Positions 1-34,082 of a stretch of 64,000 nt of DNA are shown in pieces (position 1 is the first letter of the stretch; every line of letters begins with the position of its first letter). Source of the DNA: Saururus chinensis (taxonomy: Eukaryota; Streptophyta; Magnoliopsida; Piperales; Saururaceae); NCBI GenBank assembly GCA_035235625.1, contig CP141150.1, forward strand, positions 7,874,001 to 7,938,000, read 5' to 3'. Both the position numbers and the translations under genes were made by a program. Below the pieces are notes generated by a model, which searched no databases, was not told the origin of the DNA, and worked only from the letters and a program-made list of their open reading frames with translations.

Positions 1-540
1 TTATTTTTTAATCTGAAGTCCTAGATCGCCAAAGTGAGGCCTTTTCGTCTCCTGCAAATCAAAATTATGTTGTCCAGAGCCTCTTCTCTGTTTTGTTTTT
101 TCCAGGAAAAATTGTATCTTTTCCACTTTAGAATTTTTTGTTGCCTGTCTACTGATGAAACTGCATATGCTTTGTGTTTATTTTTATTTTTTAATCTGAA
201 GTCCTAGATAGCCAAAGTGAGGCCTTTTCGTCTCCTGCAAATCAAAATTATGTTGTCCAGAGCCTCTTCTCCGTTTTGCTTTTTCCAGGAAAAATTGTAT
301 CTTTTCCACTTTGGAATTTTTTGTTGCCTGTCTACTGATGAAACTGCATATGCTTTGTGTTTATTTTTATTTTTTAATCTGAAGTCCTAGATCGCCAAAG
401 TGAGGCCTTTTCGTCTCCTGCAAATCAAAATTATGTTGTCCAGAGCCTCTTCTCCGTTTTGCTTTTTCCAGGAAAAATTGTATCTTTTCCACTTTGAAAT
501 TTTTTGTTGCCTATCTACTGATGATTGTGAACACCGAATG
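1..540. repeat. Left terminal array of the giant MULE: tandem 183-bp units
   Basis: Three head-to-tail copies of a unit containing 'atctgaagtcctaga', at about 11, 194 and 377, give a period of 183 bp. The third copy diverges after about 525. The same units occur on the opposite strand at 18,410-19,000 with the same period, so this is one arm of a long terminal inverted repeat. The window starts inside the array, so the true element end and any target duplication lie to the left. Short ORFs across the units are shadows. Confidence 0.85.
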
Positions 541-689
541 GTTTCATTTCTCATGTTCACGAAACCTGCCATGCATAAAAGGATTTCAGAGTGTCCCCTT
601 TGTCTTCTCTTTATATCAACTAAATGCTTGCCGATGATTTTGATGCCTTTAAATGTTCGATTATTTTGATGCCTTCAATTCATATAAGC

Positions 690-1250
690 CTTTCAGCAAT
701 ATTGCTGTAGGGTTGGAGCAATATTGCTCCAACCTTGAGCAATATTGCATCAGCATTGGAGCAATATTGCTCCAACTTGGAGCAATATTGCATCAACCTT
801 GGAGCAATATTCTTCCAACTTGGAGCAATATTGCATCAACCTTGTAGCAATATTGCTCCAACCTTGGAGCAATATTGTTCCAGCTTGGAGCAATATTACA
901 TCAACATTGGAGCAATATTGCTCCAACCTGAAATGTTCAATGATTTTGATGCCTTTAATTTATACAAGTCTTGGAGCAAAAATTACATCAACATTGGAGC
1001 AATATTGCTCCAACCTTGGAGCAATATTGCATCAACATTAGAGCAATATTGCTCCACTGTTGGAGCAATATTGTTCCAACCTTGAAGCAATATTGCATCA
1101 ACATTGGGGCAATATTGCTCCAACCTTGGAGCAATATTGCTACACTGTTGGCACAATATTACTCCAACTTTGCAGCAATATTGCTCTAACATTGCAACAA
1201 TATTGCTCTAGATTGCAGTAGTATTGCTACACTCTTGGAGCATTATTGCT
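690..1250. repeat. Left subterminal palindrome array (GGAGCAATATTGCTCC)
   Basis: About twenty copies of the perfect palindrome TTGGAGCAATATTGCTCCAA or close variants, spaced roughly 22-30 bp apart with linkers such as 'catcaacc'. Punctuating copies of 'gatgcctttaatttatacaag' give a higher-order period. The stretch 640-1,050 is almost the reverse complement of 18,340-17,700, so the array belongs to the inverted arms. ORFs translating as repeated LEQYC/SNIA words are a product of the repeat. A natural role would be clustered transposase-binding sites; that is inference. Confidence 0.85.
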
Positions 1251-1362
1251 ACAATATAGCCCTATAGCATTTTGTTACACACTAATAAAATGTCTTAGTT
1301 TCAAAATTTTGAATATATTCCCTTCTTTTCTTCATAATATTTTTATGGACTTGTGTAGGGCA

Positions 1363-3603
1363 ATGGCAAGTGAGGGGTCAAGTGTTCGATGTGATGGGCA
1401 TAATGAAGGTGATGAACAAAATGACATTCAAATAGGGAGCCAAGTAAACTCTGCTTATCGAAAATTAGATTTTCATGAAGTAGAAGAAAGAGTACCAAAT
1501 ATTGGAATGGAGTTTGTAACAGAGGAGATGGCTTACAAATTCTACAATGATTATAGTGCAATAATTGGATTTAGCATTCGAAGAGGATGGAAATGGAAAA
1601 AAGATGGCATTATTAGAATGCAAAGATTTTGTTGATCAAAAGAAGGCAAAAGAGTTGAAGATAAAAGAAATAGAGTGGTTAAGAATCCTCGTCCAGAAAC
1701 AAGAACGGGCTGTTTAGCTCTGATGGTTATTAACCTTGTAGGTGACATGTACAAAATTGTACAATTTGAGCCAAGTCATAATCACATGGTTGTGACCCCA
1801 ACAAAGGTTCCATTTTTGAATTCACATAGACGCATGAGTATGTCTCAATCTGTGTTGGCTGATTCAGCGGCAAGTGTAGGCATTCCACCTAAAGATTCTA
1901 TAGCTTTGCAAGCAAGCCAAGCTGGTGGTCAACAAAATGTAGGGTTTCTTGCAGTGGATCTGAAAAATTATTTACGTACTAAGCGTCAAAAGGTGATGGA
2001 AAAAGGAGAAGCAGCGGCTTTGTTAGAATACTTCAAAAGAAAACAAAAGGATAATCCATCTTTCTTCTACTCAATGCAGTTGGATGAAGATAGTCTGATA
2101 ACTAATATCTTTTGGGCAGATGCGAGGATGATAGTAGACTATGAGAATTTTGGGGATGTGATCAGCTTTGATACCACTTATAGAACTACTAACATAAATT
2201 GGCCGTGTGCATTGTTCACTGGTGTAAATCATCATCGCCAAGATACCATATTTGGGGCTGCCTTGTTATATGATGAGACTGCTGATTCTTTTATTTGGTT
2301 ACTTGAGACTTATCTTGTTGCAATGTCTGGTAAGAAACCGGTTACTATCATTATAGACCAATGTGCAGCAATGGCTAAAGCTATTCGAGTTGTTATGCCG
2401 GAAACCCATCATCGTTTATGTATATGGCATATATATCAGAATGCAGCTAAACATCTCAGCCATGTTTTTGAAAAGTTTCAGTCATTTGCAAGAGATCTAA
2501 AACAATGCATATTTGAGTTTGAAACAGAGGAGGAGTTCTTAGAGGGATGGAATAGGATGATTGAAAAATATATAGTTCAAGATCATCCGTGGTTGCTTCA
2601 GTTGTTTCGTGAGAAGGAAAAATGGGCTATGGCTTATGGTCAACATCATTTTTGTGCGGGAATGAAGTCCACACAGCGCAGTGAATCTATGAACAATATT
2701 TTGAGGAGGTATGTAAATTCTAAAATAAATCCTATGGAGTTTCTTCATCATTTTGATAGATTAGTAGATGATCGACGTTTTCAAGAGTTACAAGCTGATT
2801 TTAAAATGTTGGATAGAACTCCTAGGTTACTCATGTTCTCTAAAATGTTAGCACAAGCAGCAAAAATTTATACCCCAACTGCTTTTGAAATATTTTTAAG
2901 TGAGTATCAAGATCACTTAGATTGTGAAATTCATGAATATATAGAGAAAGGAACAACAATGGAGTTCAAAGTTGTAGGAAAGCATGGTCAACACAATGTC
3001 ACATTTGATTTACAAGATCACACAGTTGTTTGCAGTTGTAAGAAGTTTGAATTTGCAGGAATACTATGCAGTCATTCATTGAAAGTGTTTGATAATCGAT
3101 GTGTGAAGATGCTCCCTCCTCAATACATAATCAGACAGTGGTCAAGAGATGCAAAAGTTCAGGTCATAATGAATTCAACTTCAACAACTACTGACATTGA
3201 CCCACATAAGGCTATGGGAACACGCTTCATGGAGTTGTCACGTATATTGATTGCCATAGCAGCACGGGGTGCTGAATCTAAAGCGGCATATAAGGCAACA
3301 ATGATTCAAGCTAAAATTATGTCCCAAGTAATAGATGAGGAATTGAAGCAAACTCATCAAAATGAGCTTCAAGATAGGGCTGCAAATATGCATGAGACCC
3401 AAGCAGAAAAGGATATCAATGACCAAAATATTGAGGTACATGCATCAGGGATAAAAATACGGGAGAAACGTGCTCGTGGTGGTAAAGCAGCTGCGAGGAA
3501 GAGGGGTTGCCTTGAGAGACATCACAAGAAAAAAAAGCAATCAAGTCCAAGCACTCAGCAGTCTCCCGCCTCATGTACTCAATTGCCTCAATTGCAGCTT
3601 TGA
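1363..3603 (+). pseudogene. FAR1/FHY3-type Mutator-like transposase, one in-frame TGA
   Basis: One frame runs for 746 codons with a single internal stop, TGA at 1,633-1,635 (codon 91). The ATG at 1,363 follows a good splice acceptor (ttgtgtag); an earlier in-frame methionine extends into AT-rich non-coding sequence. Order: an N-terminal FAR1 DNA-binding zinc finger (Cys117, His139, His141; the stop sits where its first Cys is expected), a MULE transposase core with candidate DDE residues Asp270 (FDTTY), Asp332 (IIDQCAAM) and Glu441 (RSESMN) plus a WHIYQN motif, a SWIM finger CSC..CSH (557, 559, 569, 571), then a basic tail. This enzyme would cut and join the terminal repeats in the nucleus. 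Apart from codon 91 the protein appears full length, so the loss is recent, or the TGA is a sequence error or is read through. Domesticated FAR1/FHY3 factors share this fold, but the flanking inverted arms favour a transposon gene. Confidence 0.92.
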
Positions 3604-4412
3604 CCTCATATCCCAATGTTTCAGCCACCTCAAGTAATTATATTTATTTACTGTGTTATAGATACTATCACATGTCTTTTTGTATTCTATATAATTCTAA
3701 ATTATTGGCATGTATTATAGGATTCATTTTGTTGTGAAGATACTCCTAGAGGTATCGAAAGTTTTTCCAACTTACTTGAGGTAAGTTCAATCATTTGCTT
3801 TAACTAAAGCATTTTATTTGATAGTTTTTGCAAAATATGATTTAGTAAATTTATTTACATTGTGCATCAGCAAGTCAGTATGTCTCCCATAGAATCAAGC
3901 CACTTGCAGATTCCTGAACCTCAATTGAGGTTTAGCTGAAGCCAATTTAGGTAAAAATAGATATTAATCACTCGTTATTAATTGAACATGAAGTATAAAA
4001 TCAGTTTTTATAAGCTTTTACTGATTACAATTTTAAGTGGTTTTTTATGCAGGAGGTTGAAAATATTTTTTGCCATTTTGCAAAGTGATGCTATATGCAA
4101 TCACATAAGGTTGATAACATTTTGTACCATTTTGTTAAGTCATGTTATATGTAATCTTGGAAGGTTGAAGACAATTTGTACGATTTGGAAAATAGATGAG
4201 GTAATTTTTCCTGCATGATGCTACTATGTAACAATTTGTATTGAATCTAGTCTTTGGAATCGAGTTTGTAAAAAAAAGAAATCCAGGTTATTTTGTAGAT
4301 ATTCTCAAACATGGTGATGAATCCAACTTCGATGAGTGTCACACTAATCATATTATGTAGCTCTCCTTTTGTCATTTGGTTGTTCTGTCTAAATGCTTTC
4401 TATTTCTTGTAG
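3604..4412. other. AT-rich stretch after the transposase
   Basis: AT-rich DNA with several intron-like segments. A short open piece near 3,870-3,940 could be an extra transposase 3' exon or UTR, but nothing is recognisable. The last part (about 4,250-4,412) leads into the acceptor of the SAP18-like exon and probably belongs to that captured fragment as intron. Confidence 0.4.
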
Positions 4413-4724
4413 ATTGGTAGGCACCATTCCAATGAAGATTTTGCAATGAGAGATAAGGAACCCAAGGATGAAGTACAAATTTAAACATGGAAGGATGCTA
4501 CAATTCATGAATTGATAGATATGGTATATTAAATTTTATATTACCCCTCTTGAAGTCTTTTTTAATACCTTTTTTCCTGGATGTGAACTGTACACATTTA
4601 TAAACTTTTTCAGGTCAAAGAGGTTGATCCTCAAGCAAGAAGAAGAGATGCTAAATTGTCGTTTGCTTTTGTATATCCTAATAAGAATGACCGCTTTGTG
4701 GTCAGACCTGTAAGAACAATGACT
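4413..4724 (+). pseudogene. SAP18: Captured SAP18-like gene fragment, two exons with intron
   Basis: Two exons, 4,413-4,523 and 4,614-4,724, with acceptors cttgtag and ttttcag and GT donors. Translated, they match the conserved core of SAP18, the Sin3/histone-deacetylase-associated protein that is also part of the ASAP splicing complex: HHSNEDFAMRDKEPKDEVQI, then a stop where Tyr is expected, then TWKDATIHEL; the second exon gives ARRRDAKLSFAFVYPNKN and a RFVVR motif. Only the middle of the roughly 150-residue family is present. The intron shows capture at DNA level, not through mRNA. It lies just downstream of the transposase in the same orientation. Non-functional as it stands. Confidence 0.85.
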
Positions 4725-5659
4725 GTAAGTAGGGTTGATTGTTCATAATATAGTTCCTATCAATGTTTGGCAATCATAAACTTTATGATGGAACTTTGAT
4801 TATTGGAATTGTACCATAATATTTTAAGCTTTATAGGTAGACATGTAACTGATTTGGCAACTATGTTATAGGCAACAATATTGCAATGATGATATAGTTT
4901 TTTAAACTATTGCTTACTTGCATATGACAGATAAACAGGTACTTTGAAGGAGTTCTTATTCCATCAGCTGTGCAATATTCTTGAGATTTTTGAAACCTTG
5001 TTAGGTATTTTTTGTGTGATCCACCATTTATGTTTATACTGATATTCACTTGTTGAACTTAGGAACATTGTGATTTGCTCTATGTTTTAGTTAGGAACAA
5101 GGGTATGTATGTTTTAGTTAATGTTTTGGAAAAGTGAAAGTGCTTGTTTTTTTTTAAGTTTTTCGTTGTATAGATTTAGTTGGGACAAATGATCTAAATA
5201 TGCTTATTTTCGTGTTATATTAATTTCCTCTTTTTAATTGGGCTGTGGGATTAGAAGTGAGATATTTCGAGGTGTGGACCACAAAGTTTTTTCTGTTATA
5301 TTTTGCAACCAAGTTAGTATATGATTTGAGGTGATTTTTATGTTGCATAATTAAGGCCATATTAACTTTGCAACATCAATCTTAAAGTTATGATTTTCTC
5401 TCTCCGGATTTCTAGGACATATAGCATTTGGTTATCCATGGACTATTTATTTAGGGGGAATATAGTACTTTGCTGTAAAATGTTCTCCTTTCCCTTTTTC
5501 CTGTTAGCATTTGCAGGCTCTGTTCACACTTGCTATAAAATATTCTTCAATTCTTGGGTTTTATTCTTCCTTCATATTGGTTATAGTTTTAAAGAATCAG
5601 TAGACAAAATGTGTATAACATTGTATCCTTTTTGTAACTCTATTATATCTATGAATCAG

Positions 5660-6642
5660 AGGCTTCAAAAACCAACAACAAGAGAAAACTATCTACAAGT
5701 GTATCAAGTTTGACTCTGCCATCTTACAGCGAGAATAGTGGTAGTTCTAATGCTCCAACACCACAAACTGAGTGCAAAATCTCGTCATCCCCATATTTGA
5801 AGAACTTCCCTTTCAATGAGCTCAGAAATGCGACTAGAAACTTCCATACAGAATCTCTCCTTGGAGAAGGAGGATTTGGTTATGTTTTCAAGGGATGGGT
5901 CGATGAGCAAACAATAACTGCTTTAAAGCCTGGATCTGGAACAGTTGTTGCTGTGAAGAATCTTAAAGCAGATGGTTTTCAAGGCCACAAAGAGTGGTTG
6001 GTAAGCCTTTCTTCTCTTATAGAATTTGTTTAATTAAGTTTCTCAGTTTTATTGGTGTTATTAATTTGGTTTCACAACTGATGTGGACAGACAAGTGCAA
6101 GACTCACCAACTTCACTATCCAAATCTAGTTAAGCTCATTGGTTATTTCTCTGAGGGTGACTACCGATTACTGGTCTATGAGTACTTGCCAACAGGTAGT
6201 CTAGAGAACCACCTATTTAAACGTAAATTATCCTACTTTGTTTTATGTTACTTGGAAATGAAATCATGCTCCTTGTGCATCTTCGGGAGAAACATTTGTC
6301 ATAAGTAAAAAAAATCCCACACTTTCAACATTTAAAGACGTAGATTTCATATAATTCATGTATGATGAAGTGCCTTTGTTTGTGGTGTACGGACATGAAT
6401 GTGTACTTGTTGTGACTCCTGTTAATACGTAAAGATATCTATTTAGTAGTTGTTGATTTCTTTTTAGTTATATTGCATCTCATAGAAAATGGACCTCTTT
6501 TTCAGGAGGAGCTCAGACACTTTCTTGGGATATAAGAATCAAAGTTGCAATTGGTGTTGCACGAGAACTCACATTATTGCACGATTCAGAATGTCAAGTG
6601 ATATATCGCGATGTTAAAGCTTCAAACATCCTCCTTGATGCA
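5660..6642 (+). pseudogene. Captured RLCK-VII (PBL/APK1-like) kinase fragment
   Basis: Three exon-like blocks: 5,660-6,000, about 6,091-6,222 and 6,506-6,642. The first has the P-loop GEGGFGYVFKGW and the VAVK lysine; the second encodes [22 protein letters not shown]; the third ends with the catalytic loop [12 protein letters not shown] at a GT donor. These are hallmarks of subfamily VII receptor-like cytoplasmic kinases, which act in immune and growth signalling at the plasma membrane. Missing are the N-terminal acylation exon and everything after subdomain VI (DFG, activation segment). The start of the second exon is degenerate, and reading straight on from exon 1 gives a stop. Intron positions fit the family, so this is a genomic capture and not a working kinase. 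Confidence 0.85.
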
Positions 6643-6959
6643 GTATGTCTAAAGCTGCACATATTACATGATCCCAAATAAAATGTGTTGACTTCATTCT
6701 TATTGTTTGGATGGGTGGGGCTTGCCTAAGATGAGACTGCTAGTGTTTCTTATTTGTGCACAATATTGCATACTTTGAGAATTTCTTTACGGCCAACAAG
6801 CTTGGAGATGGTGGATGTGGACATGTTTATATGGTTTTTCCCCACTTCATTGTAGGGATTTTAAGAACCGTAACTTCACATAAACATAAGAAAAGGAATT
6901 GGAGGATCATAAAAATAGATATTTTATAAAATAGCTCACTGATCATTAATCATAAGCAT

Positions 6960-7206
6960 CTAGGTATTAAAGGAGCTTAATGGCAATCTTGCACGGAAAA
7001 ATTAGTAAAGGGTCAAGAAATAGCTGTGAAAAGGCTCTCTCAAAGTTAAGGACAGGGATTTGAAGGGTTCAAGAATGAGGTGGAACTAATTGCAAAGCTC
7101 TAGCACTAAAACCTTGTTAGGCTTTTGGGATGGTGCATCCGCTAAGAATAAAAATTACTGATGTATGAGTTCATGCCCAACGAAAGTGTAGAGAAATTTT
7201 TGTTTG
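6960..7206 (+). pseudogene. Receptor-like kinase fragment, degraded
   Basis: With stops and small shifts the sequence reads GQEIAVKRLSQS, FEGFKNEVELIAKL, NLVRLLGWCI and LLMYEFMPNESVEKFLFG: subdomains II-V of a CRK or S-domain type receptor kinase. It is a different lineage from the RLCK-VII fragment just upstream, so the two kinase pieces were probably acquired separately. At least four stops interrupt about 65 codons. Confidence 0.7.
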
Positions 7207-7464
7207 GTTCGTTCTTATCTTTGATCATTTTATTACTTGATATGTTTGTTAGAGGGAATGAATATGAAGTAAATACTAAAAGAGTAGTTGGCACCTAGTA
7301 AGTTTCATATGCATTAATATATTAAGCGTGATCATCAAAGCATTAACGAACTCAGGTTTTGAAATGTAATTTAAAATTTCCATTAGTAAATTATCACTTG
7401 GAAACACTTAATATGAAACAAATTTATAGTGAATAACATCAATGTTCATCCAATATTATTCTAA

Positions 7465-8380
7465 ACTTGCCGCAATATCGCTCCAACATTAGTGCAATAT
7501 CGCTCCAATGTTGGAGCAATATTGCTACAACAATAGCAATGTTGGAGCATTGGAGCGATATTGCTCCAACAGTAGCAATGTTGGAGCGATATTGCTCCAA
7601 CATTAGAGTGATATTGCTCTAATGTACAATGTTGGAGCGATATTGCTCCAACAGTAGCAATGTTGGAGCGATATTGTTCCAACATTAGAGTGATATTGCT
7701 CTAATGTACAATGTTAGAGCAATATCGCTCCAACATTGCTACTGTTGGAGCAATATCGCTCCAACATTAGAGCGATATTGCTCTAATGTACAATGTTGGA
7801 GCGATATTGCTCCAACAGTAGCATTGTTGGAGCGATATTGCTCCAACATTGGAGCGATATTGCTCTAATGTTGGAGCGATATTGCTCCAACAGTAGCAAT
7901 GTTGGAGCGATATTGCTCCAACATTGGTGCGATATTACTCCAACATTGGAGCGATATTGCTCTAATGTTCAATGTTGGAGCAATATTGCTCCAACATTGG
8001 AGCGATATTGCACCAATGTTGGAGCGATATTGCTCCAACATTGAAGCGATATTGTAGCAATTTTGGAGCGATATTGTAGCAATTTTGGAGCGATATTGCT
8101 CCAACATTTGAGCGATATTGCTCCAATGTTGGAGCGAGTTTGCTCTAACATTGGATCGATATTGCTCTAATGTTGGAGCGATAATACGTTATAACAGTAG
8201 CAATGTTGGAGCGATAATACGTTATAACAGTAGCAATGTTGGAGCAATATTGCTCCAATGTTGGAACGATATTGCCCTAACAGTAGCAATGTTGGAGCAA
8301 TGGTATGACAAAACTGGCATGTTGTTGCTGCAATGTTGGAGCAATATTGCTCCAACATTGGAGCGATATTGCTCCAACAA
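7465..8380. repeat. Internal palindrome array, variant GGAGCGATATTGCTCC
   Basis: About thirty copies of a 16-bp near-palindrome related to the terminal motif but mostly carrying one asymmetric change (GCGATATTGC on one strand, GCAATATCGC on the other). Spacers are typically 'aacatt' or 'aacagtagcaatgtt'. The array divides the element into a left block (transposase, SAP18, kinases) and a right block (UFL1, ZNHIT2, Ulp1 gene). All ORFs here are repeat shadows. Confidence 0.85.
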
Positions 8381-8861
8381 ACGTGACATGAAGTTGACGT
8401 CGCACGATTCAACCACCCCAATGAAGGATATTGAACGTGAAATAAGCTACCTATTGGATAACGGTGTGTGACACAAGAAATCTGGCTTACCCAATTACTT
8501 TCCAACCTTTTTAATGGATAACCGGGGCGTGTCTCTCTATGCAATAAGGGTTCATTATTCAACATATTGCTCCAATTTTTTAAACACCCCTAAACCTAAA
8601 CATCTAACTAGGCAACAAAAAAAGTGAGCAACGTAGAGGCTACCAGCGAAAAAATGCTAGGCAAAAAGAAGGTATGAGATATAGTATATTTACACATGCT
8701 ACATATGGATAACAGATGATATGGAACACCTTTTTCATAACCATTCTATTTAGAAAAATGTTGTATATTAGTATCATCTTAGTTATTTACCCCTCAAATA
8801 AATTTGATTGTACTATTTAACATTTTAAATATACAACTGCAGACCGAATACCATCTGCAGA
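8381..8861. other. Spacer between internal array and captured genes
   Basis: AT-rich DNA with no recognisable gene. It begins with a short moderately GC-rich piece (8,381-8,550) after the last palindrome, with one isolated half-motif near 8,568. I see nothing else I can support. Confidence 0.4.
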
Positions 8862-9376
8862 TCACAAAGTCCACAGATCAGAGCATTCCCCCCTAGTGAA
8901 CGCAAGTTGATAGCATCCCCTACCAATCTCTAGCTGCACAGCTTCCCCTAGAACGTTTGATACACTACATACTAGTGTGGCTGCACCCAAGGCATCTGAT
9001 TGTGAATCTCCATTGTAAAGACGGAGAGTAAAGCGATAGCAGAAAAGGACATCCACCGAGTGAACAGCCAAGAGTGGTGATGGATTTCCATAGACCAACT
9101 TGCTAAGGGGGGTTAGTGGAGCTTCAGGGCCTGGTGGCACTTCATTTAATTCTACTTCTGAATCATCATTAAGTGAAAGAGTTGATGTTTCTTGGTCATT
9201 TTGGACTGCTCCGACAAGTTGAGCTATTTCCCGACTAAGAGAAATTGTCCTTGCAGACAGTGTCATCCACCATGGGATCCATGGCTTTATCATCTTGCTG
9301 AGTTCTCCTGTTGTAATTGCTATTTGGAACCTTATCATTTCCTCTGGAGACAGGTCTTCTAATCTGACTTGTTTTC
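8862..9376 (-). pseudogene. Captured ZNHIT2-like (HIT zinc-finger protein 2) exon
   Basis: The minus strand opens at a clean acceptor (ttttcag, boundary at 9,376) and runs to a stop at 8,862. The translation has the conserved middle and C-terminal part of plant HIT-type zinc finger domain 2 proteins: GELSKMIKPWIPWW, SLSREIAQLVG, VPPGPEAPLTPLSKL, a PSPLLAVHSVDVLFCY block and RFTLRLYNGD, then SDALGAATLVCSVSNVLGEA. The N-terminal zinc finger exon is absent and the end is unlike the family. ZNHIT2 works with the R2TP chaperone in assembly of spliceosomal and other complexes. It directly follows the UFL1 fragment on the same strand, so it was probably captured with or next to it. Family call confident, function not. 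Confidence 0.8.
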
Positions 9377-9589
9377 CTGAAAATAAATCATTGATTTGAG
9401 TGATGGTAACAGAAAGAAAAATGACGCAGAAGAATGATTGAACATATTATCCTTACCATATTCAAAATAAATATGTGCTCTAAGAAAAGAGAACTTTTAA
9501 CGGATAATTTTAGCATAATAATTCAAAAGGTTATTGTCATGATTATCATTGTACAGAATCAGTCGATTAAGTGGGTGAAGTAAATTTTA

Positions 9590-12500
9590 CCAAATTTGAT
9601 AAAAGAAAATCCACCATAGATGAACATGTCGTCCTTAGCAGATGCCTAAGGAGAATTACCTAAAATTTAAAGAAGAAAATCTTAGCATCATCATTCTACA
9701 AATATTAAATATCCATATTAAGTACAAAACACTATAGCATAAGATCAACAATGAAAAACATACTGAGGTTGATGGATCATCTTCAAATAAATCGAGGGCT
9801 TTCTCATAAAGTTGAATATCCAAAAAGGCCTGGAAGGAGATATGAAAAAGATGTTATAAAAATATATAAATCTTGGGCTTTTATTTCTCATAAAAGAAAT
9901 AAACTAGAATAAAAATCCTCATTCACAAATTGTCATGCCATTAGAAGGTAAAGACCAAACTAAGATGCCATACAAAAGACTACCTTAGATTAAAAGGGTG
10001 GGCTTCTAATTTTTCTTTTTATTTCACATAAAAGAAAGAAACTATAAGAAAATTTTTCATTCACAAATAATCATGCCATTAGAAGGTAAATACCAAACTA
10101 AGATGACAAAGGAAGTATGGAATTTATACAAAAATTATACTGTACATCAACGTAGAAGAACAAAACTATTAAAGATACACATCAAGAAAGGAACCTCATC
10201 TAGTTTCTTTTGCAAATTAGCAACCAAGCGCGCCTCCTTTTATCTGCGTTCTCTGCAAACAAAGCATTTCTGGAGCCTGTTTGCTGTTGCTTTGATGGTC
10301 AACAGTCTCATTCAATTCAGAGCGCCATCCACTGTCACTTCCATCTTCAGGTTCATTAACAAATTGAACAGTGTCATGAGAAGCCCTTATATGAGTAAGA
10401 GTTTTTGTTTCTTTGTCTAGGAGACCGAACACATCCTGCACATTAAAGAAAGGGAGAATGACATAACCTCATAATAAACAAACAAATAAAAAGAGACCAA
10501 AGGAAAGGGAAAAAAATATATTTGCAGAAATCTTAAATACCAAGGGACTAGGATCTATAGACTGACCTTGATGAAATTGGTACTCAACACACAATACTCC
10601 CCTAGAATAGTTGCTTTAGCTGACTGGGGAAGTGATGTGTGAGAAATAATTCAAAATTAAAGTACATGTCCAAGAAGTGTCTTAAACATTAAAAAGTTCA
10701 CCTTAAGCGCCCTCTTAACTGATGGACAAAGAGACAAAAGCTTAGAAGCATCCTGAGGCCCATAAACTGCAGGTAGAATTGAAAGGCAGTCAATCTTGTA
10801 ATCCACAAGGGGAATTATATTAGAAAAGGCAGCAAGGATGATGTATGCATTAATTTTTCTTAAAAATAAAAATCTGTTTCAAGCTGGAATGCTAGTATGC
10901 ACTCCTACCTAAGTGAAAAAAGATTCTATGCTTTCTCTTTGAGCATGGGCAAAAACCTGCAGCACAAAACCGACAACAGCATTTAAAAATAAATGTCCCA
11001 CAACAACCTTCATCAAATTACTAACAGTTTAATTTGCTCCCATTTTCACATTCTTAATCCTGGTAACTTTTTATCATAAAAGTTCAAGTAAATTTAAGCA
11101 AATCAAGCCAGAAAACTGGAGATTTTGAAAGCCACAACATAATTAAGAGCAACAAATGCTAATAAGATGTTTCATACAGCAGGTGTCCATTGAACTCCAG
11201 CATGAAGTGATCCAAGTATCTCGCCTTCCTTAACTAGACCATTACATAAAGATTGGAAGAAAACACCTTCAACAGATACACCACTCGATCCATCTGTCTC
11301 AATTAATAATTGTTGTAGAGAGCTCCAAACTGTTGATAAATTAGTGGGAACAATGATACCCCTTGAAGCTCCACGCACCATAGCATTAATACGTGCAACA
11401 TATGCAGGTGTATACAGCTGTCCTCCCTCAAGTCTTCCTTGCACCTAGAAAGAATAAAATTGTAATGTTGGTACTACTTTGACAATTGGAGACATGATAA
11501 ATACAAATGGTTATTGATGAAGCATATTTTTGAGTAGTAAAGAATGTCTCAGAGAACAAAAATAAAGAAAAAAGTTGTAAAAGTCATGGAGATCCTTTTC
11601 TTCATAGGCCAGTGACATGGCTACAAGTGATTGCCTGGTATTTCTTTCAGCTCTCAGAAGTATAAAATCCCATTATGACTAGAACTCAGAGGATTATATT
11701 CGGATCTAAGTTTCTATGAGTAGCACCTCATATTTTTTGGCTCCACATATCCCTGTAGAAGAACATTTTAACTTATAAACAGTGGTTAACCTAATCTTCT
11801 GTTCATCTTTATTTTCTTGGAATAGTTAAGTTCATATGATATTGTGCTATTCACATAAATGATATTCCTAGCTACTGCTCCACTTGACAATGAGGTTTTT
11901 GGCATACACAAAATTATTACATGATAAAAAGTTTCATTGAATTTAACATGGAAGAATTTGAATGCATGTTAACGTAGGATGAAGAAAATAAAAATAAACA
12001 AGAGAAAGATAATAAGTATCCACTAGTCAATTAGTAGCAGCAAATGATCCACACTTTGTGGGTGCCATAATCTCAATCAAATTCAATTTTCTCAAATGAG
12101 CAACAGATACGATGATAGTAAAGGTGATAACTATTCATGAAATATGTAAAATTGTCGATATTGGCTATAAATTGGTGAGTGCAGCACAAAGAATGATATT
12201 AACTTTTCTACAACATTTTTCATATCCTACAAATACAAAGTTGGCACGTTGATGTACTATGTGGTTTCAACAAGGGGAAAGATATAATTTGATAACAAAG
12301 TGCAAACTTCATGACACCCTGTTGCATACAGTGGTCATCTACAATCACACAAACATTATACGATATAAATGCAAGGAGAAATATATGCTTACAAGAATCC
12401 AAAGACGGGTCTCCAAAACAGAAGCCAGCAACTCTGAGCTGACATGCAACTGAGCAGCGAGCTCTGCTAATGCAATTTGACTACATTCTCGAAGCCTCTC

Positions 12501-12681
12501 ATTAATTTCTTCAGCAACTGCAGACCAAATAGGATTGAGCTATTATATCTCCTTGTATTAGCATGAGATCTGAATTGCTAGAAACTATCTGTTGAGACTG
12601 CATCTCCACATAGAACAAATCATCACCAATATTATCAGCAAGATCTATCAATGAAACTCGTCCAGACTTTTCAATTTCTGC
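9590..12681 (-). pseudogene. UFL1: Captured UFL1-like (UFM1 E3 ligase) multi-exon fragment
   Basis: A row of minus-strand exons in correct order: 12,681-12,393, 11,444-11,178, 10,956-10,909, about 10,820-10,702, 10,623-10,567, from 10,435, then pieces near 9,834-9,763 and 9,660-9,590. Translations include EKSGRVSLIDLADNIGDDL, AEEINERLRECSQIALAELA, LEGGQLYTPAYVARINAMVR, SSLQQLLIETDGSSGVSVEG, DCLSILPAVYGPQDASKLLS and LDIQLYEKALDLFEDDPST, matching the N-terminal and central part of UFL1, the ER-linked ligase that attaches UFM1 to ribosomes and other targets. Lesions: one extra base near 12,510 shifts frame, about 80 residues are missing after the third exon, and the exon from 10,435 stops early. 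The start and C-terminus are absent. Retained introns mean capture from genomic DNA. Confidence 0.88.
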
Positions 12682-12689
12682 CTACATTT

Positions 12690-13567
12690 CAAGTCTCAGA
12701 TGATTCTGTCACCACAAACAAATGGGCCAACGTTTTATTAAACATAGTTGCAAATGCTCTTTATTATTCAAAACAAAAAGGAAAAAATGTAAAATACAAA
12801 GGTATATCACCATGTCCCATATATGGATCACACCACAAACCGTGACTTCAACATATAATCACATGATGCAGAAACAATTTTTATTTTTAAGCTAGCTGGG
12901 TAACAGTTCAAAGGATGAGTGTCATGACGTATCTAATTGATGAGTGAGAACAACTAGGATCAGCCAAAGCAATAGTTAGTTTTCTTTTGAAAGCTAATTG
13001 GGTAATATTCAAAGAATGAGGGTTATGGCGAAATTAATTGACGAGTGAACAACCAGGATCATAAAAAAATTAAACATACATTTCATTAGAAGACCTCTAG
13101 CAAATAATGGCGAACTGTCAATGAATTTGGTATAAGCATTTGATAGAAAGTGAGAAAGAAAAAGAGACGAATATAAATTTGGTGAGAACCTTTGTATTAT
13201 ACTCTACCATTTAAAACAAAGGCTTCTCATCTATCATCACCTTTTTCTGGAGAAAAAGAAATAATTGGGTGATAAACATTGAAGGAGATAATGAAGAAGA
13301 AGAGAGTTAAATATTGGGCGGATAAAAACAAAAGACCCCATGACAGTCTCAACCGGGAACATTTGTCTTCATTCATCTAACCACCAATGTAAGTAGTAGA
13401 ATAAAAAAAAACCAACGGAAACCAAATTCATCAGCTTTCAACCATTAATACAAAGAAAAGCCCAAGCAAATGTTAGATTCACCCCTTTTATATATACAGA
13501 CCTATGGATCTAGGAAACATTAATACATATCATTTAAGGTTCTCACCATCATCATAAAGACTCATAC
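12690..13567. other. Non-coding spacer between UFL1 fragment and Ulp1 gene
   Basis: AT-rich DNA with a partly duplicated passage ('gatgagtgagaacaactaggatcagcc' near 12,940 and 'gacgagtgaacaaccaggatcata' near 13,040). It probably includes the 3' flank of the Ulp1 gene and upstream intron sequence of the captured UFL1 fragment. No coding sequence seen. Confidence 0.4.
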
Positions 13568-16500
13568 TCAATCAATAGAGCCTCTTAGGATCTTTGCAGC
13601 CATTCCAAGTCTCAAACGCTGAGAGATATCTTCCTAAAAAAGTTGAAACGAATAAATTTGTTAGTATCCCATTTTGACTGAAGGAATAAAGAAGAAATAA
13701 AAAAATATATGCAATTGGCCCATATATCTTATTAACCCCATTATACCTGAGTATAATCAACTGGCAAACCAGAGCTAATGCAATATACAGTACGCATGAG
13801 GAAGAACCCACAATCAACCCCGTTTGATTGGTATGGTCCCTTCTTACTAACGATCTTCCACTTTTTAGCATTAGGTACCTTAAGGTGCTCCTCAAGAAAT
13901 ACTCCAATGCTATCCATCTATTATTCACATATTTGCCAAATTAGTTTCAAAGCAATTGTTTAAAAAAAAATTGGTTTCAATGAATCATACATTAACTCAC
14001 CAATTTTTTCACATTAGGATGTCGTTTCTTATGGCCATACCCAGGCATGGAATCGAACCATTTCACTTCAGTCTTGTCAACATCTATGACCAATAAGTGA
14101 AAATGTGCATTGTCACACATTGGTATAAAGATGAAATCAGGACATTCTTTATCCGCTCCAAAACATGTGGTTGCGAGGTCCTCCAATGCGTCCTCTGCCA
14201 TAACCTTCAATTGCAATTCCCATTGGATTTGACTTAGTCCATATCCTAACTTAACCCAATACATAAAAATATTAGGCTTTGGACCATACCTTGGTGAAAT
14301 AAAATTGCAACGCAAAGGTCCCAAAGTGGCATTTGGGGAAGGCATTTCCAGTAGATCTAGATGCTCTTTGTTGTAGCATATACATGTAAGCATCTATTAC
14401 CTACATACATTGAAGCATACACTTAGTATAAAATCAATATTGAATACTTAAGATTTAAAGAGATAGAAATTGTAGTCTTACATTAGACGAGATGTACTCC
14501 GCCTTCAACATATCCACTAAGTCATTGTTTGCGACACCGACACCCACCACAGAATGGCTCCTATCTGTAATGAATTTTTGAATAGTGTCTTGATCTCGCG
14601 TACACAAATTAGATAGAGGACTGCATAAGTTAATCTTCATTGGACGGCAAGGGAAGGTACGGGATGCTTGCTTGGCTGAGGCTTCGCAAGAAACTAAAAT
14701 GGTTGCAGCCTCCTCCACAGTTATTTCCTTCTTCTCCCTCCTCTTCCTCTTTGTCTCCAGAGTAAAAGGGGTCCCATACTTCTTACTTTTATATTTTATC
14801 CGTAGAGGTCTTTTCGAAGTGAGACCCTCTTTATCTCCCTCCCCATCTCCCTCCTCATCATTCATACTCTCCTCCCCATCTGGACCTTCCTCTCTCTTAT
14901 CCTCCCCTTGCTCCGCTCCCCCCTCCTCCTCATCCGCCTCTCTCCCCTCTCCCTCATCCACTCTCCCCTCCTCTCCTGCCTCTCCCCCATCCTCTCCCCC
15001 TCTTCCTCCTCTCCCCCCTCTCCCTCATCCACTCTACCCTCCTCTTCCGCCTCTCCCCCATCCTCTCCCACCTCCTCTCCCCCTCTTCCTCCTCTCCCCC
15101 ATCCTTTCCCACCTCCTCTCCCCCCTCTTCCTCCTCTCCCCCATCCTTTCCTACCTCCTCTCCCCCTCTTCCTCCTCTCCCCCATCCTTTCCCACCTCCT
15201 CTCCCCCTCTTCCTCCTCTCCCCCATCCTCTCCCACCTCCTCTCCCCCTCGGCATCCTCTCCTCCTTCTCCCCCCTCGGCCTCCTCTCCTCCTTCTCCCC
15301 CTCTTCCTCCACCTCTTCCCCCTCTTCCCCTCCCTCCTCCTCACCCTCCTCTTCCCCTCCCTCCTCCTCACCCTCCTCTTTATTATCATCATCATTATCT
15401 CCAATATCTTCCTCGTCAGCTTTGCCACCTTCATCCTTGTCCGCTGCTGCAGGGGAGGTATGCCTCATCCTCTTTGATGACCTCTTAACCAAATGATTGG
15501 CCATGTTCTTAAATGTCAAAATTTTTTCTGAAATGGTGTCCATGACACCATGTAGATGGTCAGTAGGGTAGCCCTCCTCCTCCAATATATGCATGGCAGT
15601 ATGCACAACTCCAAGTGCAGAGGCCATATTATCTAGTGCCAACTTCAGGACCAACATTCCTCCCCCACTCGCCTTCACCAGCGCCCCACCTTCCATTCCT
15701 ACCTTCCTTTTTTTAAGGCTTTTCCTGCCCCTTCAATGAGATTTGCCTCATTCGCAACAGGAACCAACACAGATAGAATCTGTGGTCAACATATGCACAA
15801 TTAGTTAACATGCAAAGTTCAATAAACTAAAAAGTTGAACAAATTTTAAAAACTCAAACATTTCAATATAAAAAATAGTCACAATTACCTCTTGTGGTCT
15901 CAGAAATTTAAACATTTGTGCATATTTGCCCACCGACCTATGGTGCTTAGCCTCTTTTTCCCCCTTTAACATGCCACAATTTGGCCACTTGGCAAATCGG
16001 GGCAGCTTATGCGGCACAGGGGATATGAACATCTTAAAATGCTCAAACACCCAAACCTATAACATATAAAAGATAAAAATTAGCATTTTGTAACTCCTAT
16101 ATAATCATGTAAATACAATTATGTAGCAAGTATAAAATACCTGTAGGACAAATGTTGCTCCAATCAATGATCCATAGCCCTTAGACTTGCCTGCCTCCTT
16201 CGACATAATCTTCCTATGGAGGGTTGAGGCTGAGACTACTAAAAATTCATAAATAGCTTGAGGCCAGTCATATTGATGGAGGCTGCCCATGTCTTCCACC
16301 AGGTCAATTAACGCGTTCTTGACCACATTGTGGGTCTGAGGAAATAGGAGGCATGAGAAAATGTGCAAGATGATCGTTCTTGCACAATCCTCCACCGATG
16401 TAGGGTCGGTTGTGGCAGTTAAAACATCCATGGTCTTCTCAATTTCAGATCTTGTAACCTGCTTCTTCCCAAAATGATGCTTACAATACGCACCCCTCTC

Positions 16501-17238
16501 CTCCCTTTCTTGGGCGAAGACCACCCGATTGCCCCCCTTCTTTAGGCCAGTAATGAGGGCCACATCCTCCACAGTGAAGTCCACTCTACATCCTTTGAAT
16601 GTGACCCCAGGTTGGGCCTCAGTCCAATAACCCAAAATTACTTCAAAAAGTGATGCCTGACAAACGATGTTTCTGGCGTCTAACAATTGGATGAAGGGGG
16701 TTTGGCTAACAAGAGTCTTCATCTCTGGGAAGGTAGACAATATGTTCACTGACTTTGCTAGTCCCGAGGGGAAACAAGGGACTTTCAATGACTCTTGCCT
16801 ATTTCTTCCTGATCCTCCTCCAAGGTTTGAGCCCCTCTTCTTTGATTCAAGAACTTCTGCATCAATACATATCTAAGTATTAGTAAGAAGGTACCTAGAC
16901 ATGTAATAAAAGTGTTGAATATAACCCCGTAAATAACATAGCAATATTTAAAATATACACTGGCATCATATTCAAGATGGTATGAGTATAGCTGAAATAA
17001 TGCTACAACATTTTAGCTAGTGTGCTATAAAATTACCAATAATGCAGAAATGTTGTAGCAATAATGTCTTTAAAATGTCGCATATAATTCAATTATTGAT
17101 AATAGGATTAACATTTAAAATATTGCTATAACAAGAGCAATAATCCTAATGCATAAGCATTAATATTAGTACATCAACAACATCCACAAACATTTTAAAC
17201 GTAGGGATTAAAAAAAACCTACTTGATTTAGTTGCCAT
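13568..17238 (-). pseudogene. Mobile-domain/DUF1985-like plus Ulp1 (C48) protease gene of the MULE
   Basis: Exons I infer: 17,238-17,223 (MATKS, donor gtaggt), 16,856-16,141, 16,056-15,889, 15,779-14,482, 14,400-14,290, 14,249-14,001, 13,917-13,747 and 13,633-13,568 (stop). Exon 2 carries a plant-mobile-domain/DUF1985-like region (DFTVEDVALITGLKKGG). Exon 4 is a linker of Glu, Gly and Arg repeats followed by basic KRKRREKKE. The last exons give a C48 peptidase: His (HFHLLVID, codon 14,099-14,097), Asp (WFDSM, 14,054-14,052), Gln and Cys (QSNGVDCGFF, 13,812-13,810). Three lesions: a frame break at an A7 run near 15,705 (one more A would restore the frame and create a KKRKV nuclear signal), a TAG at 15,153-15,151, and a frame change at 14,289-14,250 that needs either a 40-nt intron, too short for plants, or a one-base slip. 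The product would presumably cleave SUMO-like conjugates. It faces the transposase from the other arm. Confidence 0.85.
14860..15400 (-). repeat. Coding minisatellite in the Ulp1 gene linker
   Basis: Imperfect repeats of a pyrimidine-only unit on the plus strand (ctcctctccccctcttcctc type, about 18-48 bp), purine-only on the coding strand. In the gene's frame it encodes Glu/Gly/Arg-rich repeats. The strand asymmetry opens all three minus frames, which explains the overlapping long ORFs here; only the frame shared by 15,696-15,154 and 14,961-14,482 joins the flanking exons. The single TAG at 15,151 comes from one base change in a repeat unit. Confidence 0.8.
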
Positions 17239-17354
17239 GATAGATATTCAATGAAAGGAAGCCCTACTATAGTGAAGACACTGTTCCTGAAACATCAAAA
17301 AGCACATTACAAAAGTTATAATGTTGTTAAGAATTATTAGCATTATAATTTACA

Positions 17355-18290
17355 ATTGTAGCAATATTGCTCAATCCCTGCATCAATATTGTTGCAAGGT
17401 TGGAGCAATATTGATCCTAAGGTGTAGTAATATTGCTCCTACGGTGTAGCAATATTGCTCCAATGTTGATGCAATATTGCTTAAACCTTACAGCAATATT
17501 GCTCCAAGACTTAAATAAATTAAAGGCATCAAAATCATCGAACCTATCAGGTTGGAGCAATATTGCTCCGACGGTGTAGTAATAATATATTTAATGTTGG
17601 AGCAATATTGCTCTGACGGTGTAGTAATATTGCTCTAAGGTTGGAGCAATATTGCTCCAATGTTGATGTAATATTGCTCCAACCCTATAGCAATTTTGCT
17701 CCAAGACATATATAAATTAAAGGCATCAAAATCATAGAACATTTCAGGTTGGAGCAATATTGCTCAAAGGTTGGAGCAATATTGCTATGCAATATTGCTC
17801 CAAGTTGAATCAATATTGCTCCAACCCTACAACAATATTGCTGCAAGGCTTATATAAATTGAAGGCATCAAAATAATCGAACATTAAAGGCATCAAAATC
17901 ATCGGTAAACATTTAAAGGCATCAAAATCAATGAACAGTTTCAGGTTGGAGTAATATTGCCCCAATGTTGGAGCAATATTGCCCCAATGTTGATGCTATA
18001 TTGCCCCAATGTTGGAGCAATATTGCCCCAATGTTGATGCTATATTGTCCAAGGTTGGAGCAATATTGCTCCAATGTTGTTGTAATATTGCTCCAAGTTG
18101 GAACAATATTGCTCCAAGGTTGGAGCAATATTACTACAAGGTTGATGCAATATTGCTCCAAGTTGGAAGAATATTGCTCCAAGGTTGATGCAATATTGCT
18201 CCAAGTTGGAGCAATATTGCTCCAATGCTGATGCAATATTGCTCAAGGTTGGAGCAATATTGCTCCAACCCTACAGCAATATTGTTGCAA
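17355..18290. repeat. Right subterminal palindrome array
   Basis: Inverted counterpart of the left array: many copies of GGAGCAATATTGCTCC, with 'aaattaaaggcatcaaaatcat' punctuating at about 17,515, 17,710, 17,860 and 17,900. The part at 17,930-18,345 is nearly the reverse complement of 640-1,050. This array is longer than the left one, so arrays expand or contract independently in the two arms. Confidence 0.85.
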
Positions 18291-18409
18291 GGCTTATATG
18301 AATTGAAGGCATCAAAATAATCGAACATTTAAAGGCATCAAAATCATCGGCAAGCATTTAGTTGATATAAAGAGAAGACAAAGGGGACACTCTGAAATCC
18401 TTTTATGCG

Positions 18410-19010
18410 TGGCAGGTTTCGTGAACATGAGAAATGAAACCATTCGGTGTTCACAATCATCAGTAGATAGGCAACAAAAAATTCCAAAGTGGAAAAGATA
18501 CAATTTTTCCTGGAAAAAGCAAAACGGAGAAGAGGCTTTGGACAACATAATTTTGATTTGCAGGAGACGAAAAGGCCTCACTTTGGCGATCTAGGACTTC
18601 AGATTAAAAAATAAAAATAAACACAAAGCATATGCAGTTTCATCAGTAGACAGGCAACAAAAAATTCCAAAGTGGAAAAGATACAATTTTTCTTGGAAAA
18701 AACAAAACGGAGAAGAGGCTCTGGACAACATAATTTTGATTTGCAGGAGACGAAAAGGCCTCACTTTGGCGATCTAGGACTTCAGATTCAAAAATAAAAA
18801 TAAACACAGAGCATATGCAGTTTCATCAGTAGACAGGCAACAAAAAATTCCAAAGTGGAAAAGATACAATTTTTCCTGGAAAAAGCAAAACAGAGAAGAG
18901 GCTCTGGATAACATAATTTTGATTTGCAGGAGATGAAAAGGCCTCACTTTGTCGATCTAGGACTTCAGATTCAAAAATAAAAATAACCACAGAGCATATG
19001 CAGTTTATTC
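18410..19010. repeat. Right terminal array of the giant MULE: inverted 183-bp units
   Basis: Three units in reverse orientation to 1-540, marked by 'ggacttcagatt' near 18,594, 18,777 and 18,960. The third copy is broken at about 19,007 ('cagtttattctctccgac'). Identity to the left arm is very high by eye; one visible difference is tgcatg versus cacgca beside 'aaaagg'. The outer limit of the element is not certain and may lie further right. Confidence 0.82.
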
Positions 19011-20000
19011 TCTCCGACATATAGAAGCGTGGTAAGCTGAAAGAAAGCCCATCAAAAAATGCGGAACAAACAAAATGCAGGTTGGTGGAAATGTGGTAAA
19101 AAGCAAAAAATCCAGTTTTCTATTCTTTAAAGAATCTGGGATGGAGTAGTGACTGAAGCTTGCAGTAAACACAATGTGGAACATTCAAAACCCAGAAAAT
19201 ATCTGTGAAAGAAAATGGAACCTAAAGAATCTGGGATGGAGCAGTCACTTTGGCTCGCAATAAACACAATGCAGAACAATCAAACCCCAGAAGTTGTCCG
19301 TGAAAGAAAATGGAATGTTAAAACAATCGAAGTTCCTTTTTTTCCCCTGGAATGACGGATAGAGACAAAATAAAAAATACATAAGCGCATCTACATCTCA
19401 AGTTCGTTTGTTGTACCTCAACGATCGTGCTTTTCCGACTGTTGAACGGGAATCAGACCGACTTGCAGGAGCGAGCGCCAACAGACTGCACCTCCTATTT
19501 CGTTTTTTATGTGTCGGCTGCCTCTGAGAATGTTGCTGCCTGACCACTCTTCTTTGGCGTCGATCGCTGCTTCTCTGGTCATCGGGATGGGTGAGTTGCA
19601 GAGCGCTCTTCCGATCGTCGGGGTGGGTGGGAGCGGGAGTTCTGAAAGTGGGTTCCTTGAAGAACACTCCACTCTTCTCCGGCGTCGATCGGTGCTTCTC
19701 TGGTCACCAGGTGGGAGTGGGAGCAGCGGGACGGAGTGAGTTGCAGAGTGCTCCAAGGATCACCAGGGCAGATCAGAGCGGGAGTTCTGGGTTCCGTGAA
19801 ATGCACTCCACTGGCCTAGCCCGGCTCTGATCTGATTAATACCTTCGCCTGGTCGTCCTGTTCACGAAACCATCGGTCACCCGGGTCACCGAGTAACCCG
19901 GTCTCTTGCTCCCACCTGATGACGTGGTTTCACCTGATTGGGCACTCCCACCCACCCCGGTGGGAGTGCATCACAGCCGATCCGAAGCGATGAAAAAGTG
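19011..20000. repeat. Outer flank of the MULE arm: two kinds of short tandem repeat and a hairpin
   Basis: A unit of about 93 bp is present twice (starting 'aaagaatctgggatggag' at about 19,132 and 19,224). A GC-rich unit of about 126 bp is also present twice ('cgtcgatcg(c/g)tgcttctctgg' at about 19,558 and 19,684). Near 19,948-19,975 'cactcccacc' and 'ggtgggagtg' can pair. This could be the true outer part of the long inverted repeat, whose left partner would lie outside the window, or host DNA. The ORFs here are not convincing. Confidence 0.5.
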
Positions 20001-21255: not shown

Positions 21256-21319
21256 CTGGTTTTGGCGGGCGCACTAAGTATGTACAGGGCAAGGAAAATG
21301 TTGCTTCTGTCATTCTCAT

Positions 21320-21850
21320 TTGATGAGTACACATACTAGACTAATCGGGTGCATCCTTTTCCATTTAGCTTTATTTCCCTTCCTACAAGATTCACATGCA
21401 GGGGTTACATTAAAGCATGGGGAATGGATTCGTGACTATGACAAACTCACATCCTCCGGAGGCATTTTTGAGCTGGGCTTCTTCAGATTCGGTCTTGGAT
21501 GCCTCAAAGAATCTCACACTCAAGGTCTTGGACTCTGAAAACCTTGTATTGAGAGATGACAATGGAGGGCAGCAACTTTGGCAAAGCATAGACTACCCAT
21601 GTAATGCTTTTCTTCCTCGCATGAAGTTGGGCATAAACAGAAAAACTCGTCAAGTTCGGCAGCTGACTTCATTGATGAATCCTGAAATTCCAGCTCCAGC
21701 GGCCTTTACTCAAATGGCACAAAACAGTTGGTAATATAACAGAGAGGGGTGGCTATTTGGAATAGTGGGACCTGGGTTGGGAATGACTTCAGCTTCATGC
21801 CCTGGATAAAGCTGCAATTTAATTTTGAGGAAAATTATTTCGTCTATCAT
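21320..21850 (+). pseudogene. G-type lectin S-receptor fragment, copy 1
   Basis: Signal-peptide-like start (MMSTHTRLIGCILFHLALFP) and the start of a bulb-type mannose-binding lectin domain (LTSSGGIFELGFF), then, after an internal deletion, NLVLRDDNGGQQLWQSIDYP, LPRMKLGINRKTRQVRQLTS and the start of the S-locus glycoprotein domain. The frame changes at the deletion and again near 21,710. The copy stops at 'cgtctatcatg' (21,851), where CACTA-type repeat DNA begins. The family consists of plasma-membrane receptor kinases; no transmembrane or kinase part remains. Confidence 0.85.
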
Positions 21851-33849: not shown

Positions 33850-33893
<44 letters not shown>

Positions 33894-34051
33894 GAGAGAG
33901 AGAGAGGAGAGAGAGAGGAAGAGGGAGAGGGGAGAGAGAGGAAGAGAGAGAGGGTGGAGAGAAGAGAGAGATAGTGAGAGGAGAGAGAGAAGAGAGAGAG
34001 AAAGGAGGGAGGGAGAGAGGGGAAGAGATAGGAAGAGAGAGAGGAGAGAGG

Positions 34052-34082
<31 letters not shown>

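Follow-up and report, generated by a model that had tools for sequence, protein, structure and literature searches.

The DNA analyzed here, a 64,000-nucleotide stretch of the Saururus chinensis genome (assembly GCA_035235625.1, contig CP141150.1, positions 7,874,001 to 7,938,000; hereafter the window), opens inside a Mutator-like element (MULE) of 21,363 bp that carries a transposase gene at one end, a Ulp1-type protease gene at the other, and pieces of host genes between the two. This element very probably belongs to a family of large MULEs with two genes each that has been active recently and has been accumulating host fragments while transposing as a unit, with the cargo being decaying passenger DNA. 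The initial annotation of the window, made from the letters alone, had already proposed a single MULE with these two genes at opposite ends, and the domain matches described below bear this out. Its estimate of the size, about 19 kb with a right edge at 19010, needs correction: the element measures 21.4 kb and continues to 19989, and position 19010 is instead the end of a set of 183-bp repeats.

The boundaries of the MULE became apparent when the DNA was extended to the left of the window. The stretches at 1-929 and 18052-18980 pair as inverted copies at 98% identity, as the initial annotation had recognized, and this pairing continues to window position -1373 on the left and to 19989 on the right, so that the left arm ends in a matching terminus and does not run into unrelated sequence. 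The inverted termini of the whole element (window -1373..19989, G000:C11:7872627-7893989) begin CGCTTCGGATCGG, each end reading inward as CGCTTCGGATCGGCTGTGATGCACTCCCACC, and a perfect 9-bp target duplication, ATGAAAAAG, lies directly outside both of them, its right copy at 19990..19998. Such a duplication had been suggested as something to look for, and the length of 21,363 bp follows from the termini that it flanks. The window element thus combines a MULE transposase domain, a 9-bp duplication, and long terminal inverted repeats (TIRs), the features by which MULEs are recognized. The portion of the MULE within the window is 1..19989, and its two arms are ≈97% alike. The left arm spans -1373..929 (plus strand, ≈2.3 kb, with its inner part at 1..929), and the right arm, at 18052..19989 (minus strand, ≈1.94 kb), is shorter by two 183-bp units; these tandem repeats occupy 1..524 in the left arm (plus strand, five units including those left of the window) and 18457..19006 in the right arm (minus strand, three units). 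Across the outer 900 bp, arm identity averages 0.968 within elements (seven elements, with C5a an outlier at 0.910) versus 0.950 between elements, the latter being equal for same-side and opposite-side comparisons. These values are consistent with homogenization that keeps the arms of one element alike, and they lend partial support to the earlier proposal that such homogenization is recent.

The window MULE is one of many. We searched the genome (516 Mb in 11 contigs) with an arm query that returned 84 matches, and because 40 of 123 first-look candidates were scored, the copy counts are lower bounds. At least 16 elements have both termini located and are dispersed over several contigs. Twelve of these 16 bear perfect 9-bp duplications, two (C3s and C5b) have a single mismatch, and the remaining two (C6c and C1) are mismatched as called, with C6c pairing with one mismatch only after a 1-base shift of its right end. 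The right end of the C1 element (G000:C1:40127479-40149778) abuts the arm of a neighboring family element at ≈40.151-40.162 Mb, with no duplication between them. Thirteen of the two-ended elements measure 19.6-22.5 kb, and the other three are 11.9, 12.8, and 16.4 kb long. A seventeenth element, C10, has a right end only; its left end was not found.

We compared the interiors of eight elements in full or nearly so, namely the window copy and seven others. The interior pieces that are present occur in the same order in all eight, mostly at 93-98% identity outside the palindrome arrays described below. Other copies with the same internal order, which had been predicted for this genome, are therefore present, and this common order shows that the two arms belong to one element and are not two independent insertions. 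One of the compared elements, C8s, lacks the equivalent of window 5268-13655 and retains 59 bp of the RLCK piece; this remnant marks it as a deletion product and rules it out as an ancestor that preceded capture. In the 16.4-kb element C3s (G000:C3:11477770-11494171), the Ulp1 half is missing and has been replaced by an inverted copy of the element's own transposase half; C3s is still bordered by its singly mismatched 9-bp duplication.

The transposase gene reads inward from the left arm. Its main exon, for which we predict limits of 1366..3630 on the plus strand, matches the Pfam domains MULE (PF10551, 1.6e-27), PF00872 (6.3e-11), FAR1 (7.3e-7), and SWIM (2.4e-4), and a frame reading with predicted splice sites places the probable last two small exons (FSNLLE and QVSMSPIESSHLQIPEPQLRFS) at 3721..3938 on the same strand. 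The FAR1 domain (PF03101), at 30.3 bits, exceeds its cut-off of 28.1, as would be expected of a member of the FAR1/Jittery-type MULE clade. In the window copy, an in-frame stop interrupts the main exon at 1633-1635, and no stop occupies that codon in any of the seven other compared copies. Because this stop lies inside the transposase gene, the window copy is not autonomous, contrary to what the initial annotation supposed. The ratio of nonsynonymous to synonymous differences (pN/pS) in the transposase is 0.33-0.60 between four family copies and the older relatives L069, L070, and L071, which themselves bear four to seven transposase stops; among the older relatives the ratio is 0.52-0.76, and short comparisons with L072 give 0.78-1.34. 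This pattern fits, on modest evidence, constraint on source elements followed by decay once a copy has inserted.

Convergent with the transposase, a Ulp1-type gene at 13744..16872 on the minus strand reads inward from the right arm and comprises a DUF1985/PMD-like exon, an acidic tandem-repeat region, and a Peptidase_C48 domain. When the two C48 exons are joined, the domain (PF02902) is matched at 3.5e-11 and 43.8 bits versus a cut-off of 20.7. A GT-AG splice is seen between these exons, and the window copy has the His, Asp, Gln, and Cys residues of C48 across them, which we take to be the Ulp1 protease motif. The remaining exons probably belong to the same gene. In three copies, the DUF1985 scores (34.3, 28.9, and 31.6 bits) all fall under the cut-off of 35.1, as do the PMD scores (30.5, 31.9, and 29.5 bits) under that of 34.9. 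The acidic stretch of the protein differs by indels among copies. Of the seven copies that have the Ulp1 gene, three (C5a, C6b, and C8s) have a frame break in the DUF1985 exon and two (C3b and again C8s) have one in C48 exon A. Recent synonymous and nonsynonymous changes number 11 and 23 in the DUF1985 exon (P 0.25), 6 and 6 in C48 exon A (P 0.04; both P values uncorrected), 1 and 5 in C48 exon B, and 4 and 16 in the middle of the gene.

Host gene pieces lie between these two genes, and all those that we checked are fragments. The initial annotation had listed five captured genes with introns; for four of these (SAP18, RLCK-VII, UFL1, and ZNHIT2) we identified candidate source loci, whereas the fifth, a probable and degenerate second receptor-kinase fragment at 6780..7330 (plus strand), is seen by frame reading only. 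The SAP18 fragment (4397..4720, plus strand; PF06487, E 4.8e-6) consists of two exons, 4397-4515 and 4603-4720, with an intervening stretch, and the exons are 77-80% identical to a candidate host locus at C8:32048092. It has a stop within the first exon and three stops in the stretch matched by PF06487. Of the 34 SAP18 places that a family search gave in this genome, only that on C8 is matched without a stop; the other 33 all contain stop codons, some of which may fall at the borders of introns. The RLCK-VII fragment (5209..6774, plus strand) retains three exons with introns, lacks the first and last exons, and matches the host gene at C2:40594204-40595760 at 91.2% identity over 1,575 aligned columns, introns included.

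On the other side of the center, the order of the remaining two pieces is the reverse of that first reported, with ZNHIT2 to the left of UFL1. The fragment at 8544..9467 (minus strand), which has no ZNHIT2 match from Pfam and which we take to belong to that family, aligns to C7:12606700-12609000 as four pieces (83-90%) and to contig C10:13968900-13970500 as two (91%). The C7 locus, with an open exon of 316 codons, is taken as the host gene; the locus on contig C10 may be another derived copy, given the internal gaps that it has in common with the element. The UFL1 fragment (9461..13445, minus strand; PF09743) includes several exons with introns and matches C1:61982500-61989300, mostly at 93.6-96.1% with two short pieces at 90.7 and 93.4%; intron sequence matches the source here as it does for RLCK. 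The source stretch spans 5.17 kb, and internal pieces of it are missing from the captured copy. As the sole PF09743 place with profile positions 1-53, this C1 locus is taken as the host gene, and with it in hand we rejected the possibility that the genome has no host UFL1 gene. Fourteen of the 16 two-ended elements, and C10 as well, have a match to the UFL1 exon, and in many of them it is free of stops. ZNHIT2 and UFL1 meet at a common TTCAAA, which is what template switching would leave. At the ZNHIT2 position, four of the eight compared elements have a different piece (C6a, at G000:C6:25011563-25033611, C3b, C6b, and mostly also C10), which we presume to derive from the C terminus of a Raf/EDR1-like kinase; its Pfam kinase score of 20.1 bits is under the cut-off of 23.1. 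Each of the four sourced pieces has the same orientation as the transposon gene on its side of the element.

The pieces differ in how far they have diverged from their candidate sources, with identities of 77-80% for the SAP18 exons, 83-91% for ZNHIT2, 91% for RLCK, and mostly 94-96% for UFL1. Such differences are suggestive of captures at different times, before the present copies spread. They suggest, without proving it, that the cargo was acquired stepwise, the SAP18 figure being the weakest. In seven elements, the RLCK piece has diverged from its source by 0.072-0.085 in exons and 0.078-0.085 in introns, and the UFL1 pN/pS in five elements is 0.81-1.33. Recent synonymous and nonsynonymous changes amount to 6 and 13 in RLCK, 2 and 10 and 2 and 8 in UFL1, and 7 and 18 in ZNHIT2, with no significant synonymous excess in any of these three. 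Overall, the RLCK and UFL1 pieces fit near-neutral drift, with the ratio lowered by inclusion of the host branch, a conclusion that is supported rather than proven.

The termini, the target duplications, the common interior, and the candidate source genes are observed directly. Together they suggest that a cut-and-paste element can go on moving as its cargo grows. We envision that the family gathers host fragments one by one between its two genes, introns included, probably through template switching while excision gaps are repaired. The enlarged element would continue to transpose as a single unit, its cargo pieces would be passengers that decay nearly neutrally, and transposase from open-gene copies could mobilize the stop-bearing window copy in trans. 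Several observations weigh against this account. Transposition is read here from sequence alone, and no event was observed. The main transposase exon is free of stops and indels in only one of the eight compared copies, C10, which is the very element whose left end was not found. Inside the family, the transposase pN/pS ranges from 0.36 to 0.94 (six pairs), and the recent changes (43 synonymous, 99 nonsynonymous; P 0.03, uncorrected for several tests) amount to a weak synonymous excess. As for the cargo, the age of the SAP18 piece is estimated from a candidate locus and only two exons, so that a nearer source may exist, the second receptor-kinase piece is no more than probable, and some small copies could have a pre-capture origin. 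The RLCK pN/pS of 0.62-0.75 is under 1 with the host branch included (a paralogous RLCK locus, L064, gives 0.57), and UFL1 exons have diverged less (0.027-0.053) than its introns (0.049-0.054) in five elements, most clearly in the window copy.

These last two observations also favor a different reading, in which selection maintains the captured pieces because they are functional or give rise to small RNAs that regulate their parent genes. The sense orientation of the pieces and the persistence of the UFL1 exon, stop-free in many elements, would agree with such a role. The similar divergence of RLCK exons and introns, a UFL1 pN/pS near 1, and the RLCK piece's lack of its first and last exons do not, and on the strength of the divergence, the recent changes, and the stops in nearly all SAP18 places, we rejected selection on the cargo as the likelier reading and consider it improbable. 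That two adjacent MULEs, or an assembly artifact, imitate one long element is far less probable still. Neighboring elements do occur in the family, as where the C1 element (C1:40.127-40.150) meets another arm, but 16 two-ended elements, 12 of them with perfect duplications and 13 of similar length, share one interior order, and this order together with the flanking duplications rules out two independent elements. Least credible of all is an explanation with no transposon, in which a gene cluster was duplicated in inverted orientation, by chance or long ago. Host gene pieces and inverted arms by themselves might suggest such an origin; the MULE transposase, the 9-bp duplications, and the scatter of copies over several contigs speak against it.

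A further possibility complements the family history set out above and would, if correct, explain the continued activity of so large and strongly inverted an element. The MULE contains three non-coding arrays, two just inside the arms at 690..1260 and 17340..18300 and one in the center at 7432..8400, where the two convergent halves meet; they are made of 22-bp units that are composed of 11-bp-phased CAANNTTG palindromes and include the 20-mer TTGGAGCAATATTGCTCCAA. CAANNTTG occurs 95 times in these 2.5 kb of arrays, most commonly at a spacing of 11 or 22 bp, versus 27 times in the remaining 61.5 kb of the window; in 500 single-base shuffles of the arrays its mean count is 0.8 and its maximum 4. 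Three arrays are kept in seven of the eight compared elements, and two in C8s. Genome-wide, TTGGAGCAATATTGCTCCAA has 529 sites and its reversed control none. The listing of these sites covers 50, every one of them on contig C1, and 39 of the 50 fall within or next to loci with sequence in common with the element. The other 11 are at four places on this contig (18.778, 21.467-21.471, 26.240, and 40.110 Mb), singly or in clusters away from the element loci found here, and may represent small non-autonomous relatives.

This arrangement recalls the VANDAL elements of Arabidopsis. As summarized in the literature on these elements, VANC proteins with DUF1985 attach to short motifs repeated in tandem in non-coding DNA (PMC5735166, PMC10398659) and lift silencing (PMC5735166), and the KIU (KAONASHI) genes add Ulp1 (PMC13317346). 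In both systems, as far as these accounts describe the VANDALs, a MULE transposase is accompanied by non-coding tandem repeats of short motifs and by a second gene, of DUF1985 type in the VANDALs (with Ulp1 in KIU) and DUF1985/PMD-like, with Ulp1, in Saururus. The parallel is close, and by analogy the DUF1985-Ulp1 protein of Saururus may bind the three palindrome arrays and strip silencing marks, an anti-silencing role that we propose tentatively, rating it as less than an even prospect. The joining of a DUF1985/PMD-like exon with Ulp1 in one gene, the acidic, indel-variable repeat stretch in the same protein, and the concentration and conservation of CAANNTTG in arrays associated with the family argue for it. 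Set against these are the DUF1985 and PMD scores under the curated Pfam cut-offs in all three copies and the 11 listed TTGGAGCAATATTGCTCCAA sites at other places, and the arrays might instead serve to bind the transposase or represent a neutral minisatellite. The arms present another difficulty, in that those of VANDALs are described as degenerate (PMC10398659) and those of the Saururus element are near-identical over 2 kb. Unlike VANDALs, moreover, the Saururus element has a transposase with a FAR1 domain and host fragments aboard. The fuller proposal, that a FAR1-type MULE with near-identical arms is protected from silencing by its own DUF1985-Ulp1 protein, which would recognize CAANNTTG arrays phased to one helical turn at both ends and in the middle, and that this protection permits stepwise accumulation of host genes, is somewhat more doubtful again.

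The MULE is inserted in a gene. Directly to its right lies exon 1 of a P450 gene (20340..21093, minus strand; Pfam p450, 1.9e-20), whose splice donor at 20340 matches an exon 2 acceptor at window -1494. Because exon 1 ends at the one position and exon 2 begins at the other, the element sits inside the P450 intron, which without it would be ≈0.46 kb long. We presume the interrupted gene to be F5H/CYP84A; the linker that we take to be typical of F5H seems absent from exon 1. A frame break near the 3′ end of exon 1, ahead of the splice site, indicates that the gene may be damaged already. Farther to the right, the window has repeated fragments that read in frame as G-type lectin (S-domain) receptor kinases (21278-21734, 25830-26357, and 55609-56139) and long GA-rich (CT-rich) low-complexity tracts (22029-23176, 33388-34215, 37757-38359, and 43607-45186), the first of which sits among repeats spaced ≈425-480 bp apart.

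In its layout, the Saururus element resembles MuDR, which is a few kb long and whose genes likewise read inward from its two arms; the mudrB gene of MuDR is not known to be an Ulp1 gene. Maize MuDR is described as having two genes, mudrA and mudrB (PMC6446971). The premise of the initial annotation that MULEs reach only a few kb does not hold for the grapevine elements tabulated in PMC2528002, which include Jitvine-1 (11.9 kb) and Jitvine-2 (14.4 kb), both Jittery-like, Mutavine-18 (16.2 kb, with ULP), and Mutavine-1 (17.7 kb). That study reports ULP sequences from grapevine families of the MuDR-like type and from some of the Jittery-like type, among them families that have TIRs and families that lack them. 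Large, multi-copy, and in some cases ULP-bearing elements are thus features that grapevine and Saururus have in common. They differ in the arms, with TIRs of no more than 710 bp in the grapevine table (PMC2528002) versus 1.9-2.3 kb in a total of 21.4 kb in the Saururus family, and in the presence within one Saururus element of four host pieces with candidate sources and unequal divergence.

Pack-MULEs, too, have captured intron-containing pieces of host genes between their arms. The literature describes Pack-MULEs as elements without their own transposase and mostly 1-2 kb long, the first survey having recorded none that exceeded 7 kb (PMC6431247, PMC6446971). In Saururus, the transposon's own genes travel with the cargo, even though the transposase is broken in the window copy. 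The suggestion that this element is both an autonomous MULE and a Pack-MULE therefore stands insofar as host fragments lie between the arms; the window copy is not autonomous, and a MULE with its own transposase gene falls outside the definition of a Pack-MULE. Enlarged CACTA elements of 16-20 kb with four to five open reading frames (ORFs) are noted in Chondrus crispus (PMC6431247); these are of another superfamily and carry ORFs, in contrast to the captured plant gene pieces found here. In the open-licence literature, searched mostly by title, we found no published MULE this large that has several captured genes together with its own transposase. MULEs that bear Ulp1, MULEs as long as 17.7 kb, and the capture of genes were all known already; what is new is that features of large ULP-bearing MULEs and of Pack-MULEs are joined at a larger size.

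According to a review that touches on these elements, DNA transposition falls markedly above ≈6 kb of cargo, and Pack-MULEs are small and mobilized in trans (PMC6431247). The family described here suggests instead that a 20-22 kb unit, with its own genes and unequally diverged host fragments, has transposed repeatedly. With four fragments that have candidate sources in the same genome and with many copies to compare, stepwise capture becomes datable. Together, the DUF1985-Ulp1 gene and the motif arrays could be a second example, open to experimental test, of a transposon that encodes its own anti-silencing, here in another type of MULE. If such a role were to prove true, the Saururus family would run counter to a published suggestion linking such genes with degenerate arms.

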